Part shown: piece after piece, positions 3,246 through 63,962 of the stretch
How the letters are laid out: each line of letters starts with the position of its first letter
How positions within the stretch are numbered: the first letter of the stretch is position 1
NCBI RefSeq assembly: GCF_964275005.1
Contig: NW_027307681.1
Location: forward strand, 98,290-162,289
Reading direction: 5' to 3'
DNA length: 64,000 nucleotides
Source of the DNA: Diadema setosum
Lineage: Eukaryota > Echinodermata > Echinoidea > Diadematoida > Diadematidae
The notes under the pieces: generated by a model
Told to the model about the DNA's origin: nothing
Database searches by the model: none
What the model saw: the letters and a program-made list of their open reading frames with translations, nothing else
Translations under genes and position numbers: made by a program

Positions 3246-5279
3246 CCGAGGAACTTAAAAACTTGGTTAGATGCCTTAACCATTTGTGTGTTGTTTCGCC
3301 CTGAGGCGAGTTCCGTCCTTATCAAGGGGAGTGCTAACCTTCTCTCCTTTCATACAACACATACAACACAAATAAATATTTGTATTAGATTATTATAATA
3401 CCGCCCTCAACGGCCATGACCGCCATATTCCAAAATGGCTGCCATTGTGATGATCATTTTGTTTTCAAAAAATACCCCTAATGGTAATTTCAGAAAGAAA
3501 AGTTAAAAAAATGTGTACACAAATTGAAAATCATGTTTAAAATCAAACAATATATCCAGATCGCATTAACTCTAGAAATTGTTCCTTCGCAAATTTTCAA
3601 GAAGAAAAAAAAATACTAATAATTGCAGCCATTTTCCAAAATGGCTGTCATAGATGCCATTTTTCCTTTTATGAAGATGTCCTAATGCCGGAAGAAGACA
3701 ATAAACATTTTTGCGCAAGTCGACAAATACATACAAAGAAGTTTAGACATTGAGCCATCATAAGCTTTGTCCATAATGGCTATTTCACCTATTTGTCAAA
3801 ATGGCTACAATACACTCTCTTTTTGTTTTATTTTTTTTGTCTTAAAAATTTGCTTAATTTCCGAAGGAGAAGGCAGTAGAATACTCACAGAGACATTATA
3901 TAATCTGAAATATAGTGTTAAAGAAATCATTTGAGGAACAACTGAAATAAACAAGGCAAATGCTTAGCGATTATATCTCACCAATGATGAATGCATTTTT
4001 AGGTGGTAAACTTGAAAAATTTCCGAAAAAGAGTAATATGAATATCCAGGGATAATGGCGCCATGTATTAACTCTAACAGTATCACCATATCATTGAATA
4101 TATGGGACTATATGACGTGTATCTATTCTAAAATGTAACTTTCTAAATATTCTTAAGACAGATACGAAAAAATGGCCTTTCAATTTACCAAAAAAGTTAA
4201 TTCACTTGCCATGCTTCCATAAAAACACATACCTTTGATATCCATACTGTTAGCCGTCACACGCGAAATACTGCAATTAGAACTAAACTGAAAACATGAA
4301 TTTACAACTAACCCATCAATGAAACCGTTTTTAAGAATTTGATTTCTTTGGACACCAGATTGCATTAGATGCAATGGCTATTTAGCAGTATGCTATTGCT
4401 TTCTCCTTCTGGAATAAGCAAATAAAAAAAAGGAGTGTGTGGAAGCCATTTTGACAAAGAGCTGCCATAACCGTTGAGGACGATGTTTAAATGGTGGCTG
4501 AATATTTTCATTTCAAAATTCAAATTCAAATTCAAACGTGAATGTATTTGAATGTCTTTTGTCAATTTGCACAAGAAATGTTTTTGTCTTCTTCTGGCAT
4601 TATCATATTTTCAAGAAATAAATAGCATCTAGTGGCCATTTGGAAACTGCCTGCCATGGTCTTTGATGGTGCCATTTGTAATGACTCGTATATCATTTTC
4701 TTTTGAATATGATTTTCAACTTATGTATAAATGCCATTGATTTTCTCGCTGAAATTAGCATATCTTTCCACAAAAAAGCAGACATCCATGGCGGTCAGCA
4801 TGGCCCTTGAGGGCGCCTTCTAAGAAGACCTTATACTTAAATTTATTTTTGAGCATAATTTTCAACTAGTTTGCAAAGTCTTATTGACATTTCCTTCTGA
4901 CATCAGCAATTTTTTGCAAAAAAAAAGGGGGGCATCCATGGCAGCTGCTTTGAAACTTTGCTGCTATGGCTGTGCACTTTTGAATGGCCTATTATGAAAT
5001 TCAGTTTGAATGTAATTTTCCTCCATTGTGGAAATTCTGATTGACGTCTGCAACACTTCACAAAAAAAAAAAAAATCATGGTGGCCATTTTGAAAAAAAA
5101 AAATGGTTGGAATGGCCATTGAGGGGGCAATGTGCAATGGCCCAATAAGTTTACTTTTGAATGTAATTTCCACCTGTTTGCAAAATTTCGTTGGCTTTCC
5201 CTTCTGATTTTAGTAAATCTTTTCGAAAATATAGCATTTATGGCGGCCATTTTGAAAAATGCCTGCCATGACCGTTGAG

Positions 5280-6397
5280 AGTACCACCACAAGTGTGACA
5301 TCTGGAGTACCTCAGGGAACAGTTCTTGGACCCCTCCTGTTCCTAGTCTTCATTAACGATCTTCCTGAGTGCGTTTCCTCATCTATACGCCTCTATGCAG
5401 ATGATGCCCTCCTTCATCGATCCATCAAAACCCATGAGGATGTAGATGCATTACACAGGGATCTCACCAGTGTCCAGGAATGGGAGAAGACTTGGCTCAT
5501 GTCCTTCAATGCCGACAAATGCGAAGTATTGAGGATATCTAACAAGAGGAAGAACATCATTGGAACATCCCCGTACTCCATCCATGGGACAGAACTCCGG
5601 ACTGTCAATGAGGCTAAGTACCTTGGTGTTACCCTTCATCAAAGTCTTAGCTGGAAGCCACATATCCAATCCACATGTAAGAAAAGCAATAGCACACTCG
5701 GCTCTCTTCGACGCAATTTGAGGAGATGCTCTGCCAACATTAAGGAACTGGCATATAAGACCTACGTACGTCCCATTCTGGAATATTCCTCCACGGTGTG
5801 GGATCCTCACACCAAGGACCTCATCTCCCAGATCGAAATGGTCCAACGACGTGCGGCTACATTCGTAAAGGCAGACTACAGATACAAGAGTAGTGTCGCC
5901 CAGATGCTACAAAGACTTCAATGGCAGACCCTGCAGGAGCGACGTGCACATAGCAAAGTCACCATGGTGTACAGGATCGCTAATGGTCTTGTTGCCACCC
6001 CCTCTGGGCCTCCATTCCTGTACCCCACTCCAGACCTACATGCAACTAGAGGCCATGATCAACAGTTTAGACAGCAACACTGTAAAATCATCATTTTCCA
6101 ACACAGCTTCTTCCCAAGTGTTGTCCGCATGTGGAACGCCCTACCTCCAACAGTGGTTGCTGCTCCGTCTCTTGAGTTATTCCGGAGACGTCTGACACCT
6201 GTCCACTCACCCTCTGTTAAGACAGCCGAAGGGAGATATTTTTACTCGCACGGTAGCTTAGTTATTTATTTTTATTTGTCCCAAATTGCACCCAAAATGC
6301 ACTCTTATTTTGCGTGTTTCTGTGACTGCGCTTTTGCCTGCCAAGTACGACAATGCTCTTATCAGAGGGATGTACTCATCGGAAGAAGAAGAAGAAG
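5280..6397 (+). pseudogene. 5'-truncated non-LTR retrotransposon (RT C-terminal half)
   Basis: The frame opened at 5259 encodes a reverse transcriptase fragment. It has GVPQGTVLGPLLFLVFIND, then LYADDALL with the catalytic YADD near residue 46, then the thumb and connection segments typical of CR1/Jockey-group LINEs (YVRPILEYSSTVWDPH; RMWNALPP near the C-terminus). The endonuclease, finger region and 5' half are missing. The insert replaces nothing in the satellite: the monomer stops at gttgag (5279) and resumes at ggcgcaatttcc after a (GAA)n tail. The frame then runs on into satellite to 6524, so the last ~40 residues are satellite-derived. Dead on arrival by 5' truncation; clade within CR1/L2/Jockey not settled. 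Confidence 0.88.
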
Positions 6398-6450
6398 AGG
6401 GCGCAATTTCCGATGGCCCAATTTCGAGATTTATCTGAAATGTCATTTCC

Positions 6451-6580
6451 CACTTATAAGCAAAATTTCATTGACTTCTCCTTTTGAAATTAGCATTTTT
6501 TTAATGAAAAAGTGGCACTTATAAGCAAAATTTCATTGACTTCTCCTTTTGAAATTAGCATTTTTTTAATGAAAAAGTGG
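6451..6580. repeat. Exact tandem duplication, 65 bp x 2
   Basis: 6451-6515 and 6516-6580 are identical (cacttataagcaaaatttca ... gaaaaagtgg). It is a local duplication within one satellite monomer immediately right of the retrotransposon insertion. Confidence 0.9.
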
Positions 6581-17500: not shown

Positions 17501-20500
17501 ATTCCCCCCACACGTAATACAAGAAATTATATGATCGATTGACTGATAAACATTGAAAATGGATGAAACAAAGAAACTAAGACAAAAAGACCTATAACCT
17601 AACTTATCCGAAACAAAACCCTGAACGAATCCCTACACTAAGTCGCTGTCATGCCGGAAAAGAGAGGAGAGAAACAAAGTAGTATGTGTGTGTGTGTGTG
17701 TGTGAGTGTGTGTGTGTATGAGAGAGGGGGGGGGGGCGGAGAAAGCAGCTTAATGCGTGCAGTGAAGATAAAAGACGAAAAAAAAGTCAAATGTAAATAG
17801 AATATTATTTCTTCAAACTTAAATTATTCGACCGATAAATCATAGCGATTATCATGCCCACACGACTACTACAATATTATACCAATGGAAACTATTGAGG
17901 TTTCAAGATATTCACATTTATCAGTGAGCAACATTAATCTATCTTTTAAGCATATGATTCATAAAAGTTTATTAGGTTATTTTAAGTTATATATAATTGT
18001 AGATATAATATGAGAAATTCTAACATATATGCTGTTCCTCTTTCCAGGACATGGATGTTGGCTACTGTACTTCAGAGAACTTTACTTCACAGTGTTTTTG
18101 ACTGCAATCCCCTTCTCAATGCTGATGCACCGAGGGCTCCTTCCGAATCACACTGCCCACTTCTTAAGGAATTTACTATAATAATCGTGATCATGACTGC
18201 ATTCAGATAACCCACATTTTGGTTTTGGGAAATTTGTCCTTTTTTGTGTCTCGATTAGTGACATAAATGTCATCTTATTTTCATGCTTAAATGTTTATCT
18301 TTCAGGTTTCCACACATTGTCAAAGCATTTGGAGGCGTCTCTTTGTCCCGACGATTGGGGGAATGAGGAAGAGATAGCAAAAATGAGGCGAGTATGTAAT
18401 CAATGCATAGCAGGCGTAACGTCGTCTGATTACTGGGCCAGGCCAACGAGGAGGCATGACTTTTCTTTCTTTCTTTCTTTCTTTCTTTGCCTAACTTTGC
18501 GGCATAACGTGTTTAACTCTAAAAAATCCACATTTCTATATACTAAAGATCCTGTGTAGCTTACAAACTTTCTTGCAAGTTGTTAGGAAATGACACATCA
18601 TCAACTCACTCAGCTACATATTTCTATTGTCTATTCATGACCTATTTTCTTAAACTTCACAATGTCCCAATTTCCCCAAATTTATCAGATTTCGATCAAA
18701 TTTACCGTTGTGCTAGTAGTGTTTTAAATGTTATTTTACATCATTATCTTATTAGCTGGTCGAGAACAGATTTAACTTTAGTTAAGACGATGTCGACAGA
18801 ACCTGAAGAGCATGTTATATTGTCAATAACAGTAATTAAGATTCAGTCTGAAACTGTTGCTCATTGTACTTTAAAAGGTACTGGTGCAGCTTTGGAAACT
18901 GAACATGGACAGGATATGATACGTTATAGCAAATTATTCATAGAACATAGGAGTGAATAAACACAAGCAAGAGGTGTATTAACTATTGTAGAATAGATAA
19001 TGAGGAAGGTTTTAACGTTCACGTTGAAAACATCTGTAAGAGTTGGTATTATTTGATTAGACGAACGGAAATTTTGTGTTGGCTGGTAACAGTGCAGGGT
19101 ATCTTGATGGCAAACAGAGGCAAGTCTATGTAATGTACAATAGACAATGATTCGTTATGGTTGATTAGGAAATCATATTGTACACTTATTTATTTTGAAA
19201 ACAATGAATTACCGCGTTTTATCACTATACTCTTTGTAATACTAATTTTCAGCCTTCTCTTTGTAATTTGACCGGACTATAGACTGTTCTTAATGGTTGT
19301 TAATGTTCCGTACCATTATCTAGAGAGGTGTTTTCCAAGCGTCGGACGTTGAGACAAACCCTCCAGTTATTCAAAACCGGTATTTCACCGATGGATATGC
19401 GATTCTCGACTAACCGTCAAAAGATAGCGCAACTCAACCAGACTACCAACATGAGGGAAAGGTGGAACTGTCATACATGTGCTATCATTGGCAACTCTGG
19501 TGTGCTAATAAACAGTAAGTGCGGCCACCTTATCGACAGCTCCGATCTTGTAATGCGAATGAATCTGGCGCCGTTTGGTGGCGAGTTCGCTTCCGACGTC
19601 GGTTCGAAAGTCAGTTTAATGACGTTGAATACCGCACAATACAGGCACCTGACACACTGTATGGACAACTACGGCAACATCACTCTCGACGGGTTACCAC
19701 GCTTATGTTCGAGACTACTAAAAGGCTTAAGCCGCATGAACGGCAGCGTCCTATGGTATTTCGGGTCTATGGCCCACAACAATCGGCTGAAAACAGCGCT
19801 GGCGATGTTGCGCGATTTCTACAATCTCCACTTCGGTTTCGCCTACAGCCCGGCAGAGATCAAGAGTGAAATTCAAAGTGAGTATAGATGGGACACTGAG
19901 GTGAAAATGAAATAAAATGTAGAAATATAAAAATAAACGGTGAAATTTAAAAAAAAATATCAAAATGGTTTTACGTTATTTCGAGGATACTGAATCCGAT
20001 CAGTCTCATGCAACTCATACATCCTTGAAGGTAGGCCCTATTTTGATATTCAAGGTTTCCGGCAAAGTCTCAAAACCCTTTCTATTTCCTCATTAATGTT
20101 GACAAAATGAAAAGAAAAATCTTTGAAATGAAGATTATTTAACGTTACATCCACGCAGTGCATACATTTTCCTGTTGTAGGCCTAAATTGAATATTAGTG
20201 CAATTATGTGAATTAAATCGCTGTTACAAAATAAGTATATGTCTGAATATTATCATCATTTCAATTTACTGTATGTGTATTTCATTGCTGATTTAATGTA
20301 AGCATTAATTACAATATCAGTAGCAAGATAAACGTTTCCACATCAGTCAGATGAAAATCCAAGCTACAGATTATTTTCGCGGTCAGTAATTAGAGCACTA
20401 TTTCATTTTCTATTCACAGTAGCCCGACCTCTTTTTCCCGAGCTAATTCGATAGGTGAGCATGCGCAAACAGCATCGGTCGAGCGTGCGCCTTCAAAAAG

Positions 20501-55653: not shown

Positions 55654-55985
55654 TGTGAACGTTGTTTTGTAGACTAACGTTAGGGTCTATGATTTAAACC
55701 CTATACTTTAATACGGGTACTAGAGGATCCCTTTGTACCCACATATTTATCTATACACAGGACTACACCTAACAACACAACGAAATATTTTGGAAAACCC
55801 ACGACAATCTGCGTATTTATCTTGACAAGTGACAATCTTACGGATAGAGCTTGCTTGGGTCTGTTCATTTTATTTGAAATTGCATGATTTCATAGCTACT
55901 CATTATAAAACTCACCGGTTCTGGGGAAGGTCCGGTTGACGCTCCATCGTCTGCTTCTGCCACTTCTGGCTGATACGACACCTTC

Positions 55986-56415
55986 TCTGAACGCGACTGG
56001 AAGATTCGCGCCCACCCGAACCGACGTATTGACCGATTCGGGTTCGTTGAGGGCAGCAGACATTTTATGGCACTGGGCGCAGCCATGAGCTCAAATTGCG
56101 GTGTCTCAGCCGACCCCCCCTGCTCTCCCCCACCCCACGGGCAACATGTTTATCGCGCACTTGTAACAAAGGTTCGCGCACTAAGCAAGCATTCGCGCAC
56201 TCAGTACGAGATGCCCATTGGCCAAAACAACCATGCATCAGTTTTTCATTCTGCGCGCGTGAGAGGGGTGGGGAGAGAGGAGGGGGGGGGGGGGGTCGGC
56301 TGAGACACCGCAGTAATGGCGCTGCCCATGCCAAAAATACACATAGCGCGTCACAGAATCGGTCAATAGCGATACGTCGGTTCGGATGGACGCCTTCAGC
56401 CAATTCGCGTTCAGG
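55986..56415. mobile_element. 430 bp nested foldback with GGCG..CCATCCGAACCGACGTAT ends
   Basis: ctgaacgcgactggaagatt ... cacccgaaccgacgtattga ccgatt mirrors aatcggtcaatagcgatacg tcggttcggatggacgcc ... aattcgcgttcag. A second inner inverted pair, ggtgtctcagccgacccccc / ggggggtcggctgagacacc, frames a short loop with tgcgcgc words. Its ends match those at 47527 and 63962 by eye (about 22 of 24 positions on one side). Confidence 0.85.
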
Positions 56416-56955
56416 CAAAATGACGTATATCAAATTTCTCTATTAAAAACACAAAATCCGGTTTCCAAATTTTGTGAGTAGAAAGAGTGTGTGCTGGGCT
56501 TTCTTAAAACGGCAAAATCTGAAATTCGAAAAATTTACCGAATTTTGACATATGGGACATTCTCTGCTAAAGCGTTCAAAAACTGAAAATATGTGTCGCC
56601 AACGTTCCCACGATTATTTCCATTGCTAAAGGCCTGGTTTGAATTGCCAGAATTGTCTATGTAACACTTGAGGGTTTGAGGAGAAAAGTAAAAAAAAAAA
56701 AATAGAGTTGTCGCTTGCGTAAATTTTGAAATATCCACTGGTAAAGTTGGAGAAGTATCCCAAAACCCAATGTCGCCGCAATCATGTACTTTTTGTATTA
56801 TGCTAAGAAATTATGTAACATGAGCTTGAAACCAACATGATATTGGTAAATATAATCAACGTCTGATACATTTATGCATAAACAAGCCAAAACTTGAAAT
56901 CTTCCACGTCATTTCCCTCCGGAGCTCACTGAAGGTGTGTCGCCAAAATTCATGT

Positions 56956-57159
56956 CAGATACGTTACCAAAATATTTTAATTGATAAATTAGTGAAAATA
57001 GCAGACGTGAGATACGACAATACATGTTTAATATCGGAAGGATATACTTCATAAAATACACTAAGTTTGATTTTCTGTTTCTTAATTCCGGTTTTCAAAA
57101 CCAGACCATTATCTCTGAAAACGCATTTTCCACATTTTCTTCGCAACAGATACGTTACC
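56956..57159 (+). repeat. Subterminal motif CAGATACGTTACC, copies 1-2
   Basis: Exact copies at 56956-56968 and 57147-57159, plus orientation. Confidence 0.9.
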
Positions 57160-57311
57160 TATAAATCAAGACCTCCTACAAAAGTGTTTGATGTAATATT
57201 GTTTAATTGTACATTGATTAAGACCTTTTGAGATTATGCATCATCACAAAAAATAATTACCCATTCTCTACAAATGTTCAACAGTTATTGCGCTTTGAAA
57301 AAACGTGCGAT

Positions 57312-57351
57312 CAGATACGTTACGTCAGATACGTTACGTCAGATACGTTAC
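57312..57351 (+). promoter_or_regulatory. Triple tandem CAGATACGTTACgt at the gene promoter (copies 3-5)
   Basis: Three copies with 14 bp period at 57312, 57326 and 57340, about 45 bp before an octamer ATGCAAAT. If the protein binds this motif, it would sit on its own promoter. Confidence 0.7.
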
Positions 57352-57394
57352 TGAAATATGCGCGCTCTGTGCGCGTAATTTTCCGCGCCTGATT

Positions 57395-57402
57395 ATGCAA
57401 AT
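57395..57402. promoter_or_regulatory. Octamer motif ATGCAAAT
   Basis: Exact POU-factor octamer between the CAGATACGTTAC triplet and the putative first exon. Confidence 0.4.
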
Positions 57403-57409
57403 TTAGCAA

Positions 57410-57531
57410 GGAGAGCGTCTCGTTTATCATGTGCTGCAGTCACTTCCTTCATGGCTACCCTGTGTAGAGCGCTAGGTCGTTTCGACGCGGAGCATTCACA
57501 CTGATTTTCATCGTTTTTCGCAAGACATGTC
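57410..57531 (+). other. Putative 5' non-coding exon of the DDE-like gene
   Basis: The segment ends catgtc|gtaagtgcg at 57532, a consensus donor. Joining it to the acceptor at 58312 keeps the ATG at 58316 as start. The upstream boundary is a guess. Confidence 0.35.
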
Positions 57532-57706
57532 GTAAGTGCGTTTGTCAAAATAATTAGATAATAACGGTACATTTGGCATGTTTATGATATCAATAGTTTA
57601 TGTTTAACGCTAATTTAGTCCAAGTGCACCACCTATGCTATACATTTATTCAGTTGTCAGTAGCTCGATCATGAATCTAACATTGTGTGTTGTGCCACAA
57701 AAAGCT

Positions 57707-57740
57707 GGTAACGTATCTGACAGGTGCGGTAACGTATCTG
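57707..57740 (-). repeat. Subterminal motif, copies 6-7 (inverted)
   Basis: ggtaacgtatctg at 57707-57719 and 57728-57740, opposite orientation to copies 1-5, inside the putative first intron. Confidence 0.9.
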
Positions 57741-58315
57741 TCGGTTAGGATCTGGTGGTTTTTTAATAAGTTATTGTGCCGGTAGATGAATTATTTCTTC
57801 CCTAACTGCTTTGAAATGAAATATAATGATAATTATAATAATCATTACTATTATTCTTAGTATTATTATTGTTATTATTATTGTTATTATTATCTTTGAT
57901 AATTTATTATTGGTCGACATCGCACCGAACTTAATACTGATCCACGCATCTCTGTCCTTCATACGTACATATTTATATACATACATGTGTGTGCGTATAT
58001 ATATTATATATATATATATTTGTATATCTTTCGTATATGCAGGTTCCTTGTTAAAGTAGAGCCCTGTATTTTCAGATATTTCACTTACCACTTTGCGCTC
58101 TTTCTCTATACCTTACAATGTATAGTATATTTATGTTTACTTTACTTGTCAACTGTTCAGTCTCATTGTTACATATTTAGGTTAGATCTCATTACGTTTT
58201 TGAATCCAGATTCATCTTACATAGGCCAGTTATGACTAGTTGCATTCTTTTTTTACACTACTATGATGAACATATTTTGATAAATGTTTTCTTGGTTTCA
58301 TTTCTTCTTCAGAAA

Positions 58316-58784
58316 ATGGGGAAAACACGAGCACAAATTCAAAAGACCTACCGGGAAAGGAAAAAATTAAATGACCCATCCTTCCTACAAAATGAAAGAT
58401 ATCGCCAGGCGAGATATCGTAAACCTGTAGCAGATTTGTCAAGCTCAGCTCAATTTAAAAGACGGGCATCAAACAGGATTCACACTCAAAAATACAGGTA
58501 GGCGTATACATCGTGATGATCATATTTTCATTTTTGCTTACATTAATTATTGTTTGTTTAGAAGTAAAACAAAGGCCATAACAACAAAGTTAATTTATTC
58601 AATTTGATAATCTAATAGATAAAAATTACAAACTTTGCAAGTATACAGAGAAAACCGTTTTCTGCATGGTAATAGAGAGGATATCATACGTCATGAATAA
58701 ATTAATAAACTTGTATAAATTAAAACTCAATAAATAGATATATAAATAAATGAATATATATATATATAATTATATATATATATG

Positions 58785-58821
<37 letters not shown>

Positions 58822-59301
58822 GACGATGAAGACAAACAAGTTGACATAATGCATTAGAATCCAATTTCATTTATTTGTAAACCAAATTTTCGACCCTTGC
58901 GCGGATCTTCCTCAGGGTAACAGTGATATTTGTATTTGAAGCTCAGCACAGCAAAATAATAATAATAACAAAGAAACGCGCCTGGTTGTCAGCTTAGAGT
59001 TTGAGCTAGCAACCAACACGCACGGTTTTTAGCTCAAAATTTGCGCTATTTGAGCTAACAACCGTGCATGTTGGTTGCTAGCTCAAACTCTAAGCTGACA
59101 ACCAGGCGCGTTTCTTTGTTATTATTATCATTTTTCTGTGCTGAGTTTCAAATACAAATATCACTGTTACCCTGAGGAAGATCCTTGCAAGGGTCGAAAA
59201 TTTGGTTTACAAATAAATGAAGTTGGATTCTAATGCATCATGTCAACTTGTTTGTCTTCATCGCCTTCATGCTCTTATTCCAACACGCGGATAATAATAC
59301 C

Positions 59302-59347
<46 letters not shown>

Positions 59348-61697
59348 GATATATATGATGTGCTGTCATTACAGGGCAAAGAGAAAGAGCGCTACAGAAG
59401 CAGAGGGGGGAAAAGACAACTCTACAAACAATGTTCCAAAACGATCGATGTATAGACAGGATGACAAGGACAGGAGGGGTTCACGCGTACATGCTACTCG
59501 GGTGCCATTGGTGGTTCGCTTCCCATTTCCACAGAGAAAGATATCTGAGAAAAAACAACCAAAATGCCTGAGCAAAGCCTACAAGAAAATTGGAAAGTTG
59601 CACGCCGACAATCAAAAACTGACTCAACGTCTTAAGCGGGTGCAAAAACGCAATGAGAGGCTCAAAGTGAAATTATCAGTTGCGTCTGTCTCATCTGTCA
59701 ATAAGTCGATCGCGAAGATGACACCAAGGAGTAAAACAAAGACAGAAATAAAACAGGCTGGATTGAAGGAGAAAGATCTACCACGATCAATAAAAAAGAA
59801 ATTGACATTTGCAAACGCCGTAGCTGCACAGTTCAAGCAAACATACCATGAGACACGAAAGCAGAGTATGCAGCGAAGCCTGAGATGTACCATAGCTGGT
59901 AAAGTTGTGAAGAAGTACAAGTGCATCAGCACACTGCACAAAGAAACAGGGATCAGACGATGTACCTTGGCGACCGAGGTGGCGCAGCGACGAGTACGTG
60001 GTGGAACACTGAGGGCATTCCTTCAGGATCGTATTCTGTCTTACTTCGAGAGGGACGACGTAAGTAGGATGATGCCTGGAAAAAAAGATTCCACTAAAGG
60101 GAAGCAAAATCGAATCCTCACAGATTATCTCTCCAACCTGCATGCAAGATTCTGCTCAGAGAATATTGACATTACGGTGTCGTTCACAACATTCTGCAGG
60201 CTAAGACCATCTCACATCAAACTAACTTCGATGTTATCTCGGAACACTTGCTTGTGCACAATCCATCAAAACATGGCACTGAAAATGCGTTCACTCCGTA
60301 CGTACGGACTTGAGGTCTCGTTGAATCCTGAAACTACTAGCGAGAAAGTGGCACCCCCAAAGATGGCAGAGTTATTGTCACAGCTGGAAACCGAAACCTC
60401 TATCACTTATCAAGAATGGCGGAAAGTCGAAATCAATGGAGTGAAGAAGATGCGGATTTTGAGTGTCACCAAAACTCCAAAAAGAATTCATTGAAACTAT
60501 GAACAAAGATTACATGGCATTTCAAGATCATGTGAGCAGACTTCGACAACAGTACAAAGCCCTGCGTGATCTAAAGAATGGACTTCCTCAACATCATGTG
60601 ATAGTCCAGATGGATTTCGCGGAAAATTATGCTTGCCAAAATGTAGAGGAGATACAGAGTGCATACTGGAACGGCACCACTGTCACCCTACACCCGGTAG
60701 TAGCATACTACAAAGATGACAATGACAAGCTGCAACACAAGAGTTACGTCTTCCTGTCTCCTCTCGGGGAGCATAATGCTAAAACAGTTGTCACTATCAT
60801 CGACAAGCTGATTCCGCTCTTGAAAGAACAAGTTCCTGGAATGAACTGTATCCATTACTGGACAGACAGTCCGACGTCACAGTATCGGAATCGCTACGTA
60901 TTCAGCATTCTTTGCAAACATCAGGATATGTATGGACTGACAGCCTGCTGGAACTTTTTTGAGAGCGGGCACGGAAAAAGTGTTTGTGATGGGATAGGAG
61001 GAGTAGCAAAGAGGCAGGCATCGGATGCCGTGAAGCAAAGAAAGGTCGTTATTCAGGATGCGGACGATTTTTTTTTGCTTGGGCGTCATCTAACCAAAAA
61101 GGGCTGACCTACGTAATGTACACGAAAGGAGAATATGACAAAGCATCCGAATTCGTGGCTACAATCGACTGTCGCCCACTTCCCGGAACACAGAAACTCC
61201 ACGCTGTAGTTGCAATCAATCACTCAGAAGTGCTGGTGAGGGCAGTATCCTGCTATTGTGATGGTTGCTTAGATGGTAGCAAGAGATGTGATGGATGGCT
61301 TAGGCGCAGCCTTAAACCAAAAAAATCCCGACCGAAAGATGCTGCTGGTGATGCTACAGGTGAGGAGAACGGTGATGTACCTGTGAAAGTGGGAGAATAT
61401 ATCGCAGCAATGTACGAAGACAGTTGGTACATCGGCAGGGTCCTGGAGGTGGATAAGGAAGACCAGGACACAAAGATAACTTTCATGACAACTGTGCCAA
61501 CCAAACAACGCCCAACGTTCAAATGGGGCCTTCCGGCGGACGAGATTTGGATTCCGTTCACGGATGTATTGACCCCGATCGAGGCTCCAGTTTCCATAGG
61601 AAAATCCGGGAGGTTTTACCAGGTGTCGACGGAAACTCTCAATCTAATCGAAAAACTGAAAACTGATGCAGTGAACAAAGCTGCAAAGTCCCCGTGA
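58316..61697 (+). CDS. DDE/RNase H-like protein of the candidate transposon (two frameshifts)
   Basis: Exons 58316-58497 (acceptor ttcttcttcag; donor ag|gtaggc) and 59375-61697 (acceptor tgtcattacag), phases matching. The N-terminus is basic (RAQIQKTYRERKKL), then a coiled coil (KAYKKIGKLHADNQKLTQRL ...). The core has VIVQMDFAENYACQNVEE, then HYWTDSPTSQYRN, then WNFFESGHGKSVCDGIGG with KRQASD: spaced Asp/Asp/Glu-Asp as in RNase H-fold nucleases. A Cys cluster (CYCDGCLDGSKRCDGW) and a Tudor/chromo-like end (YIAAMYEDSWYIGRVLEVD ... FKWGLPADEIWIPFTDV) follow. The frame shifts near 60465 (+1) and in a T9 run at 61068-61076; otherwise ~820 codons have no stop. The core resembles proteins common in cnidarian and echinoderm genomes that I know only as uncharacterised. 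The nuclease role is inferred. Confidence 0.65.
58822..59263. mobile_element. 442 bp near-perfect foldback in the intron, TA-flanked
   Basis: gacgatgaagacaaacaagt tgacataatgcattagaatc mirrors gattctaatgcatcatgtca acttgtttgtcttcatcg. The centre is near 59042 (aaaatttgcgctatttt region). (TA)n runs lie at 58758-58815 and 59305-59345. It is a non-coding insertion. Confidence 0.92.
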
Positions 61698-61984
61698 TTC
61701 TGCAGGAGGCTCTATCTCCTTGCTCCACTTCTTCGTTAGGGAATTTGAAGTTTTTCCATGCCTGTGATATAAAGAGGAGATATTCATTTGGACATATATC
61801 AATGGACATATATTCGAATGAAACAGTTCAACGTCAAGGACTGGATGTAAAATGAAAGCATGGGATTCATTGCATAACTGTTTTAGTGTTGTGATTGAAA
61901 GGCTAAATGTGCTAATTTCCTGAGGGGAAATCGTCATTTTGATTGCAAAACGAACAATAGGGCATTATTTCACATTTTCTTTAA
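61698..61984. other. 3' flank of the DDE-like gene
   Basis: No ORF or motif of note. The first AATAAA downstream (62039-62044) lies inside the following MITE. Confidence 0.4.
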
Positions 61985-62268
61985 CCCATCAAGTACGTGC
62001 TGTACTGCAGTACATGGAAGTCATTTCCGATTTGCTCAAATAAATTGACAACCATTTGAAAATTGAAATTTCACTTTTTCTTATCCAAATTGTCACCTTT
62101 CATTTCCAGCAGCATGACCTTTGAAATATTTGACTTTGCATAACAAACAATCAAATATCGCATTTTAAAGGTATCGTCTGTAAAATAAAGAATTTTATGT
62201 TGCAAATTTAAGTTGTAATATGAAAATTCTCTCCTTAAAACTCAAATTAAGTTTTCGACCTTGATGGG
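61985..62268. mobile_element. 284 bp TTAA-flanked MITE (piggyBac-like)
   Basis: TTAA at 61981-61984 and 62269-62272 with termini CCCATCAAG / CTTGATGGG. Similar end logic to the 988 bp element at 26142. It contains an AATAAA at 62039 that could serve the upstream gene. Confidence 0.7.
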
Positions 62269-62772
62269 TTAACATCTGTAATTATGGATGTGGAATTATA
62301 TTTACATGATTTCACATATATGGCAAATCGTGTAAAATGCTATTGTAAATACGTGTTAATTACATAATGTTATCACAAAACTATATCTTAAGCGTATGTT
62401 AGGTCATTGCTTGAAAATACTTAGACTGCCTGTATGAATATCAATTGAATTTTCATGCGGGCACTGTTGAAATGTAGCCGACGAATATGCATTATACTAT
62501 CATGCATCCTTCTTATGGAGATAGATCTCCCCTAATGTTAATGCGTATCAAAAAGTGATTTTCTATGGTATGTGATCAGAACAGGCTAATAAAATGTGTC
62601 ACCTTAGATATGAATAATGACGACAGCCACACAAATACTGAATTTTATCATTTATTACACACAGGAATTACACAAGATACACTTACAATGATGTCTCGAT
62701 TCTGCCAGGTGCCAGAGAAGGTTACATGATTTATTTGCTAGGCAAAAAATGGATATTTTTTTTTTTTTTGGT

Positions 62773-63342
62773 CAGATACGTTACCATGACATTTACCGTA
62801 AAAATAATATGTTAATGAAGAAGCATGTGAATTCACTAATTCGCATATTCAGTCTTTTTACTCTTTTACAAAGAGCATAAGTAATACAACACATGAAAAA
62901 GCCTTTCTGATGTGATTTACACCGATATACGACAAGTTACTATTGCAACAGATACGTTACCATGATAAGATCATCAAAAAACTTCCTTTGGTGATTCAGT
63001 CATTTACCAAAGTTTGTAACCATGCAAAATAATATAATTGTAACATTGTTTTAAATCTATTTGTGTGCCTTTACAATTTGAGCTCTTCACAACACATAGT
63101 TTAGAATTTACGGAAAATTAACAATTAGATTATTGGATAAATGTACAGTTCTGATATGTTATTATACAGATACTCACAATACCTTTGAATTTTGATACCG
63201 TCAAATTTGATAGTAATTGAAGACAGAAAGTGTTACTCTTCCTGCTCTGAGCTCAATTCAAAAACGGATGGAGCACATTCATTGAAAGAGGTATCAATAT
63301 CAATAACAGTTACGAAAAAGATGAAGAAACAGATACGTTACC
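62773..63342 (+). repeat. Subterminal motif CAGATACGTTACC, copies 8-10
   Basis: Exact copies at 62773-62785, 62949-62961 and 63330-63342, each followed by ATG(A/G). The AT-rich DNA between 62269 and 63900 has no supported gene; the 99-codon ORF at 63192-63491 runs through copy 10. Confidence 0.9.
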
Positions 63343-63718
63343 ATGGACATGCGGTCATTCGCGAGATTGTTGTTCCAAAAGCGTACAATAAAGCCTCTTG
63401 GAAGATGGTCAGTTTTGGTCGTGTTGGCCATCCATGTAGTTTAAACCAATCTAATCAAATATATTGGCATTTTTGTTCTTTGCATGTCTAACTGAAATCA
63501 AGTGAAGAATAAAGTTAGGAAATATATACAAATTTTTGCGTGAACTCCTTATCAATGCAGCGAAAAGACAGAGTATATAATGAGTTTGTCTTTATTCTTA
63601 CTTTAAAAAGGCAATTGGTTTTGTTGTACAGGATCAGACGCCATTCTTGGGTGAAGTTCGGTTTCAAATAGTCAAATATACTGATCTAAACCTGTTTTAT
63701 ATCACGTTGTGTCCTATC

Positions 63719-63731
63719 GGTAACGTATCTG
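63719..63731 (-). repeat. Subterminal motif, copy 11 (inverted)
   Basis: ggtaacgtatctg followed by tcatag. It mirrors the inverted orientation of the innermost upstream copies. Confidence 0.9.
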
Positions 63732-63902
63732 TCATAGAGGCTGATGGAGAAATGTATGCCCAACTTTGTGCCATTGTTACATTGTAAATGCGTTCCTTTG
63801 GGAATTTACTGTGTTTTGTTTCTTATCCAGCAAGTGTTGTTGTTTATATAAAGACAAGTTTTGAACGAATATTTCGTGGTTGATTTTTGGGTTTTACTCT
63901 GA

Positions 63903-63962
63903 CTGAAATTGAACACTTTATGTGAGAGTGGCCCATATACGACGGTTCGGATGGTCGCCGAC
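63903..63962. repeat. Right terminal inverted repeat of the candidate transposon
   Basis: ctgaaattgaacactttatg tgagagtggcccatat pairs with 56550-56585, then acgacggttcggatggtcgc cgac equals the reverse complement of the 47527 terminus (27 of 27 with gtcggcgaccatccgaaccg tcgtat). Confidence 0.75.

Follow-up and report, generated by a model that had tools for sequence, protein, structure and literature searches.

Does a short word repeated on both sides of a single gene mark the ends of a transposon, and if so, what kind of enzyme would recognise it? The question is raised by a stretch of 64,000 nucleotides from the sea urchin Diadema setosum (contig NW_027307681.1, positions 98,290 to 162,289, assembly GCF_964275005.1), hereafter called the window. 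An initial annotation of this stretch, made from its letters alone, proposed an autonomous transposon in which a nuclease-like gene lies between eleven copies of a 13 base pair (bp) word, CAGATACGTTACC, and a pair of inverted ends. We followed the word, the ends and the gene through the window and through the assembly of 912,680,840 bases, in which the window is G000:C55:98290-162289. The element is very probably a cut-and-paste DNA transposon with a DDD-type transposase and with the words as its binding sites.

Occurrence of the CAGATACGTTACC word

With up to two mismatches allowed, the window contains 11 CAGATACGTTACC sites, all within 56956-63731 and flanking one gene, as compared with 0.9 expected by chance and a maximum of 4 over 100 shuffles. 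Eight of these are exact, while the remaining three (57312, 57326 and 57340) have one mismatch, at the last base. Upstream of the gene seven sites fall within 785 bp, and downstream of it four fall within 959 bp, in agreement with the first count of seven in 800 bp and four in 960 bp. The earlier observation that the word occurs nowhere else in the 64 kb also holds at this threshold; at three mismatches five more CAGATACGTTACC-like sites are found outside the element and one more inside it.

Across the whole assembly the word was counted 1,599 times, and a reversed-pattern control 15 times. This genome-wide search had been set beforehand as a check, and in the places retrieved the word lies clustered in homologous elements. 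All 20 places retrieved, drawn from 99 of the 1,599 sites (three single sites among those 99 were not retrieved), were homologous to elements of this kind. One of the 20 (L010) is a copy of the window element, ten are of the type of locus L007 and nine of the type of locus L006; L016 and L017, in which no terminus was found, were assigned to the L006 type by homology.

Edges, duplications and dispersed copies

The edges of the element could be settled at 56554 and 63934, since other genomic copies stop at exactly these bases. Imperfect inverted ends of 26 bp sit immediately inside an ATAT at both edges. The 36 bp inverted pair described initially is thus real, with the limits given for it, 56530 and 63962, lying 24-28 bp too wide per side. 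Judged on the window alone, the inverted pair is no more than suggestive, as its score is equalled by 4 of 2000 shuffles and, among 1568 real pairs of regions in the window, by 29; 7 of 200,000 random 26-mer pairs had 18 or more matches. A still wider pairing, of the palindromic repeat at 56008-56029 with the right flank, was rejected as the true end because this repeat has two arms of its own and the other copies stop at 56554 and 63934.

Searching the assembly with 400 bp of each end produced 41 matches for the right end, 11 of them full-length (92-100% identity), and 11 matches for the left end, 10 of them full-length (93-100% identity), the window being included in both sets. Both ends are present at nine other loci of the window family. 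Seven of these copies span approximately 4.3 kb and are deletion derivatives, and the other two span 5.4 kb (on C17) and 7.2 kb (C12:29578736-29585980). The 4.29-kb copy L010 has the same end bases as the window element, is 89.6-92.7% identical to it in the aligned parts, and lacks the transposase core. The L007 derivative group, in turn, shares the left terminus of the element at L027, one of the closest transposase relatives described below.

Alignment of the copies also defined target-site duplications of 4 bp. Both ends were located for 24 pairs from four families, and 21 of these have an exact duplication: 8 of 10 in the window family, 9 of 10 in the L007 group, 3 of 3 in the L006 group (L006, L011 and L014, the three with both ends found) and the single pair of the C12 element of L028 (TTAT). 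Within the window family the duplications are ATAT in the window, TTAT in L010, and AATT, ATTA, AGTA, TGGT, AGAA and ATAT in six of eight newly paired copies. Those of the L007 type were read by eye, with the terminus of L022, L020 and L019 set by a GGCCC or AGCCC start.

Just to the left of the transposon, at 55973-56428, lies a nested palindromic repeat resembling a miniature inverted-repeat transposable element, part of which is found again, with a match of 21/23, at 63937-63959 in the right flank.

The transposase gene and its relatives

The gene proposed at 58316-61697 is real, although a probable intron (58499-59375) interrupts it and its reading frame is broken twice, near 60463-60494 and in a T-run near 61068-61076. 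Either mutations or assembly errors in homopolymers could account for the breaks. Because of them the window copy probably no longer makes an enzyme, so that the element first called autonomous is autonomous in type and probably not in fact. Inside the probable intron is a palindromic insertion (58821..59266) with 218-bp arms that are 95% complementary, a stretch that is missing from L010.

A search of the assembly with the core frame found at least 65 matches at E <= 1e-3. The closest among the matches listed are L027 (67%, with an open frame of 937 amino acids) and L028 (62%, 874 amino acids). None of the matches listed falls within the spans of the nine other window-family copies, and the window copy is therefore the only family member in which a core was seen. 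An alignment of nine proteins contained 20 invariant columns, including D51, E54, N55, H104, D135, Q140, H170, G171, K172, D176, G177 and K183. The core acidic residues D51, D135 and D176 are invariant in all nine, with the spacing D-83-D-40-D and an HGK-DG motif. Of the Asp/Asp/Glu-Asp motifs recognised at the outset the three aspartates thus stand, and the catalytic set is D-D-D. To judge from the order of these motifs, the core probably has a fold of the RNase H type.

The C-terminal part of the window protein gave weak matches to chromo and HAS-barrel models (E 0.002-0.006), below the curated cut-off; that of L027 gave still weaker matches to HAS-barrel (E 0.03) and Tudor (E 0.15) models, and that of L028 gave neither. 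A search of NCBIfam yielded no informative match, and no homologue was confirmed in the viral_contigs, genome_contigs, phages and plasmids collections. Five loci picked up by a pattern scan of viral_contigs were translated and judged by eye to be unrelated to the transposase.

Six more distant copies, L034-L039 (35-36% to the core), lie on three contigs and are mutually 99.8-99.97% identical over 3,561 bp. Between L034 and L036 an identity of 99.6-99.9% persists over the whole 9.5 kb compared, in which the element edges are not reached, and these copies have likely moved recently. A transposase family that is diverse in this genome, includes near-identical copies and matched no Pfam model is likely to be under-annotated, although it may already carry a Repbase name.

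CAGATACGTTACC in the elements of the closest relatives

In a tree of the cores the nearest four sequences, those of the window, L027, L028 and L029, group together with support of 94/99, with long branches elsewhere. The L028 element carries CAGATACGTTACC at both ends in the same layout as the window. The left end of the L027 element has the word in this layout too, and a further copy with one mismatch lies about 5 kb into the element, whose right end the terminus search did not locate. At L029, which is the same place as L050, a single site with one mismatch falls within the 3.5-kb locus. Within approximately 1.5 kb or less on either side of the core, at up to two mismatches, the word was present in L027, L028 and L029, whereas 25 other matches lacked it. 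At the same threshold it was not found in 9.5 kb around L034 and L036, a stronger result than absence near a core.

L031 and L043 have a repeated word of their own, AAAAAGTGGATACCA, at spacings of 14, 22 and about 140 bp, and L045 retains two such sites. In the window family the spacing is 14 bp for the triple and 21 bp for the inverted pair.

Arrangement of the words and the 190-bp lattice

The order, orientation and distances of the words are conserved between families (Table 1), while the DNA between them is near shuffled identity. Global identity of the ends, compared among the window, L007/L027 and L028 with 20 shuffles per comparison (the L006 group was not included), was 0.633-0.680; for the shuffled sequences the means were 0.628-0.638 and the maxima 0.662-0.682. 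Three of the eight comparisons (window/L007 left, window/L027 left and window/L028 right) were slightly above the shuffled maximum. Between the L006 group and the window element there was no blastn match. The first left sites nevertheless agree within 5 bp among the window, L007/L027 and L028 families.

Table 1. Distance (bp) of CAGATACGTTACC sites from the element tips in six elements; slashes join closely spaced sites
Element	Left offsets	Right offsets
Window	403, 594, 759/773/787, inverted 1154/1175	204 (inverted), 593, 974, 1150
L027	400, 590, 757/771/785, inverted 1159/1181	
L028	399, 589 (two mismatches each), 755/770, inverted 1658/1679	206, 595, 991, 1385, 1635
L007	401, 591, 758/772/786, 997, 1196	203, 581, 957, 1131
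L014	401, 593, 760/784	218, 551, 605, 995
L006	372, 580, 749/773	207, 541, 595, 950

The merged site positions fit a period of 190-194 bp, with R of 0.98 when the phase is free and 0.95 when it is fixed at the element end. These values were equalled by 0 and 1 of 20,000 uniform sets and by 1 and 0 of 5,000 minimum-spacing sets; the fit uses eight positions and is post hoc, since the 14-bp triple and the 21-bp pair were merged after inspection. Same-strand pairs of the 12-mer across the genome, in counts that are weighted by copy number and not independent, numbered 0 at 80-110 bp, 611 at 175-205 bp, 1 at 270-300 bp and 409 at 365-395 bp. In seven other loci, which were not used to define the lattice but are relatives of the L007 and L006 groups, 13 of 22 end-anchored site clusters lay no more than 30 bp from a multiple of 193 bp, and 571 of 20,000 random sets were as good; L070 and L024 disagree with the lattice. 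Support from other loci is weak but present. A hidden tandem repeat of about 190 bp was rejected as the cause, as none of that length occurs in the ends.

A distant copy of the transposase, L042 (G000:C13:26943884-26944498 plus flank), has tandem repeats next to it at intervals of 175-203 bp, most often 188, near the lattice length.

Proposed mechanism and alternative explanations

These data can be assembled into a model in which the gene encoded a transposase of approximately 830-930 amino acids with a D-D-D core, which would cut at GGGCCATTCTC ends and insert the element into mostly AT-rich 4-bp targets that become duplicated. The CAGATACGTTACC words, the outermost of which lie about 200 bp from the right tip and about 400 bp from the left, are most likely transposase-binding sites, through which the transposases of this clade would recognise their own ends and those of the deletion derivatives. 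The latter would be moved in trans by the encoded enzyme.

Several observations weigh against this model or narrow it. The window's own locus, taken at the size used for the other core matches (L026), shows no word either, its sites lying further out, and for this reason the absence of the word near most other cores is weak evidence; the link between word and clade has been tested in part, and binding is the inferred role of the word. Neither the pieces of the window gene (E <= 1 or 10) nor nine relatives (E <= 1) matched a transposase or integrase model in Pfam, and no sequence relative of the transposase was found in the PDB. With no Pfam model above cut-off and no PDB relative, the probable RNase H fold rests on motif order. 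Two of the ten paired window-family copies do not have an exact duplication (AAAC/CAAA and ATGT/ATAT), and in one of the ten L007-group pairs, L009, it matches at three of four bases. Finally, L015-L018, L024, L025, L057 and the L027 element, for which the terminus search found one end or none, are outside the 24 pairs, and right-end loci L067-L075 were left unpaired.

Alternatively, the words could be bound by a transcription factor of the host that activates the transposase gene. A promoter role is conceivable from the position of the triple site, since a plausible donor of a 5' exon, at 57530, follows it by some 180 bp. We consider this improbable, as the words are retained in derivatives that have lost the gene, occur at both ends and keep their distances from the tips, and were not found around the two L034-type copies of a more distant lineage. 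That a domesticated host gene lies by accident among repeats is scarcely credible. One copy of this exact transposase among the matches listed would fit such a gene, whereas the frame breaks, the sharp edges, the duplications and the deletion derivatives with the same ends do not, and the shared edges contradict it. Orthologues in conserved synteny without repeats or inverted ends were not encountered. The first proposal, a DNA transposon in which subterminal repeats and inverted ends surround a nuclease-like gene, is supported by the copies at many loci, their shared edges and their 4-bp duplications.

The reason for the spacing is a separate matter. It could well be an inherited layout without function, although we lean the other way: all the families share common descent, the end-anchored agreement in the seven other loci is modest (with L070 and L024 discordant), the inner sites of L028 at 1385, 1635, 1658 and 1679 are off the lattice, the L006 group has a two-mismatch site near 541-551, and the genome-wide pair counts carry the weight of copy number. 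Set against this are the first left sites, which stay within 5 bp of each other though the DNA between is at or near shuffled identity, and the lack of a hidden tandem repeat at that period. The nucleosome repeat is about 190-200 bp. It is tempting to speculate, though we hold it unlikely, that the ends of the clade are phased to chromatin, with one binding word per approximately 190 bp so that the sites jointly face the enzyme in linkers, with a transposase that reads chromatin through a C-terminal Tudor/SH3-like barrel, and with selection keeping the spacing while the DNA between erodes. Should the conserved geometry of the subterminal words, at about 190 bp, prove functional, it would make a simple case, open to experiment, in which the end of a transposon is organised by nucleosome spacing or higher-order folding and not by a compact tip.

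Coordinates and other features of the window

The features of the transposon are listed in Table 2. Elsewhere in the window are a sialyltransferase (GT29) reading frame at 19304-19912 and a reverse transcriptase frame at 5256-6521. Another word, ATTACATTTAGGG, occurs 15 times, three times on one strand at 7-77 and 12 times on the other strand at 2039-2435, as though it flagged both termini of a further element about 2.4 kb long.

Table 2. Features of the transposon, in window positions
Feature	Position	Strand	Remarks
Left target-site duplication, ATAT	56550..56553		4-bp duplications also in other copies
Whole transposon copy, 7,381 bp	56554..63934	+	Edges common to other genomic copies
Left terminal inverted repeat	56554..56579	+	20/26 match to right one
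13-mer	56956..56968	+	Left offset 403
13-mer	57147..57159	+	Left offset 594
Three 13-mers, 14 bp spacing (57312, 57326, 57340)	57312..57352	+	One mismatch each; left offsets 759/773/787
Two inverted 13-mers, 21 bp spacing (57707, 57728)	57707..57740	-	Left offsets 1154/1175
Transposase first coding exon, 61 amino acids, basic	58316..58498	+	Similar N-terminus in open frames of L027 and L028
Probable intron (GT...AG)	58499..59375		Predicted; not present in open frames of L027 and L028
Transposase middle part, open up to first frame break	59376..60494	+	
Transposase core frame	60463..61104	+	Invariant D at 60613-60615, 60865-60867, 60988-60990
Transposase C-terminal frame	61116..61694	+	Weak chromo/HAS-barrel matches, all below curated cut-off
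13-mer	62773..62785	+	Right offset 1150
13-mer	62949..62961	+	Right offset 974
13-mer	63330..63342	+	Right offset 593
13-mer	63719..63731	-	Right offset 204
Right terminal inverted repeat	63909..63934	-	Shared with other copies
Right target-site duplication, ATAT	63935..63938		Adjoins right end

Comparison with known transposons

The element was compared with known systems as described in those parts of the published accounts that were available to us. Like Kolobok it has a DDD/E transposase and a 4-bp duplication (PMC9587614), although the TTAA target of Kolobok and piggyBac is found in none of the 21 exact duplications. A C/DxxH motif between the second D and the last acidic residue is described for hAT, P, MuDR, Kolobok and Dada (PMC9587614); no such pair was conserved in our nine-protein alignment, read by eye, and in this, as in its 4-bp duplication, the element differs from hAT. 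It does share with the hAT element Hermes the presence of subterminal repeats at both ends, which in Hermes are bound by a domain of the transposase (PMC10368747). In Hermes the repeats are short, cluster near the tips and for the most part cannot be aligned from one end to the other (PMC10368747), whereas the words here are 13 bp long, start 200-400 bp from the tips and have distances that are conserved across families. In the literature on Sola, uncharacterised transposases, subterminal repeats and nucleosome spacing, with subscription journals largely uncovered, we found no description of arrays like these 13-bp words spaced by about 190 bp.

Sola2 elements of amoebozoans have a 4-bp AT-rich duplication, short imperfect ends and a transposase of 888 amino acids (PMC3627910). 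The present element is similar in its 4-bp duplications (85% A+T in the 21 exact cases), its 26-bp imperfect ends (20/26) and the length of the open frames in its relatives, 874 amino acids in L028 and 937 in L027. It is unlike Sola2 in that AWWT fits just 5 of the 21 exact duplications, in that a second frame of at least 150 amino acids is lacking from the window copy, and in its array of 13-bp subterminal words, which the available part of the Sola2 account does not mention (PMC3627910). With inverted repeats that share their edges in dispersed copies, a fixed 4-bp duplication and three invariant acidic residues, the element has the hallmarks of a DDE/D cut-and-paste transposon, and in its structure, set beside the published description, it resembles Sola2 (PMC3627910).
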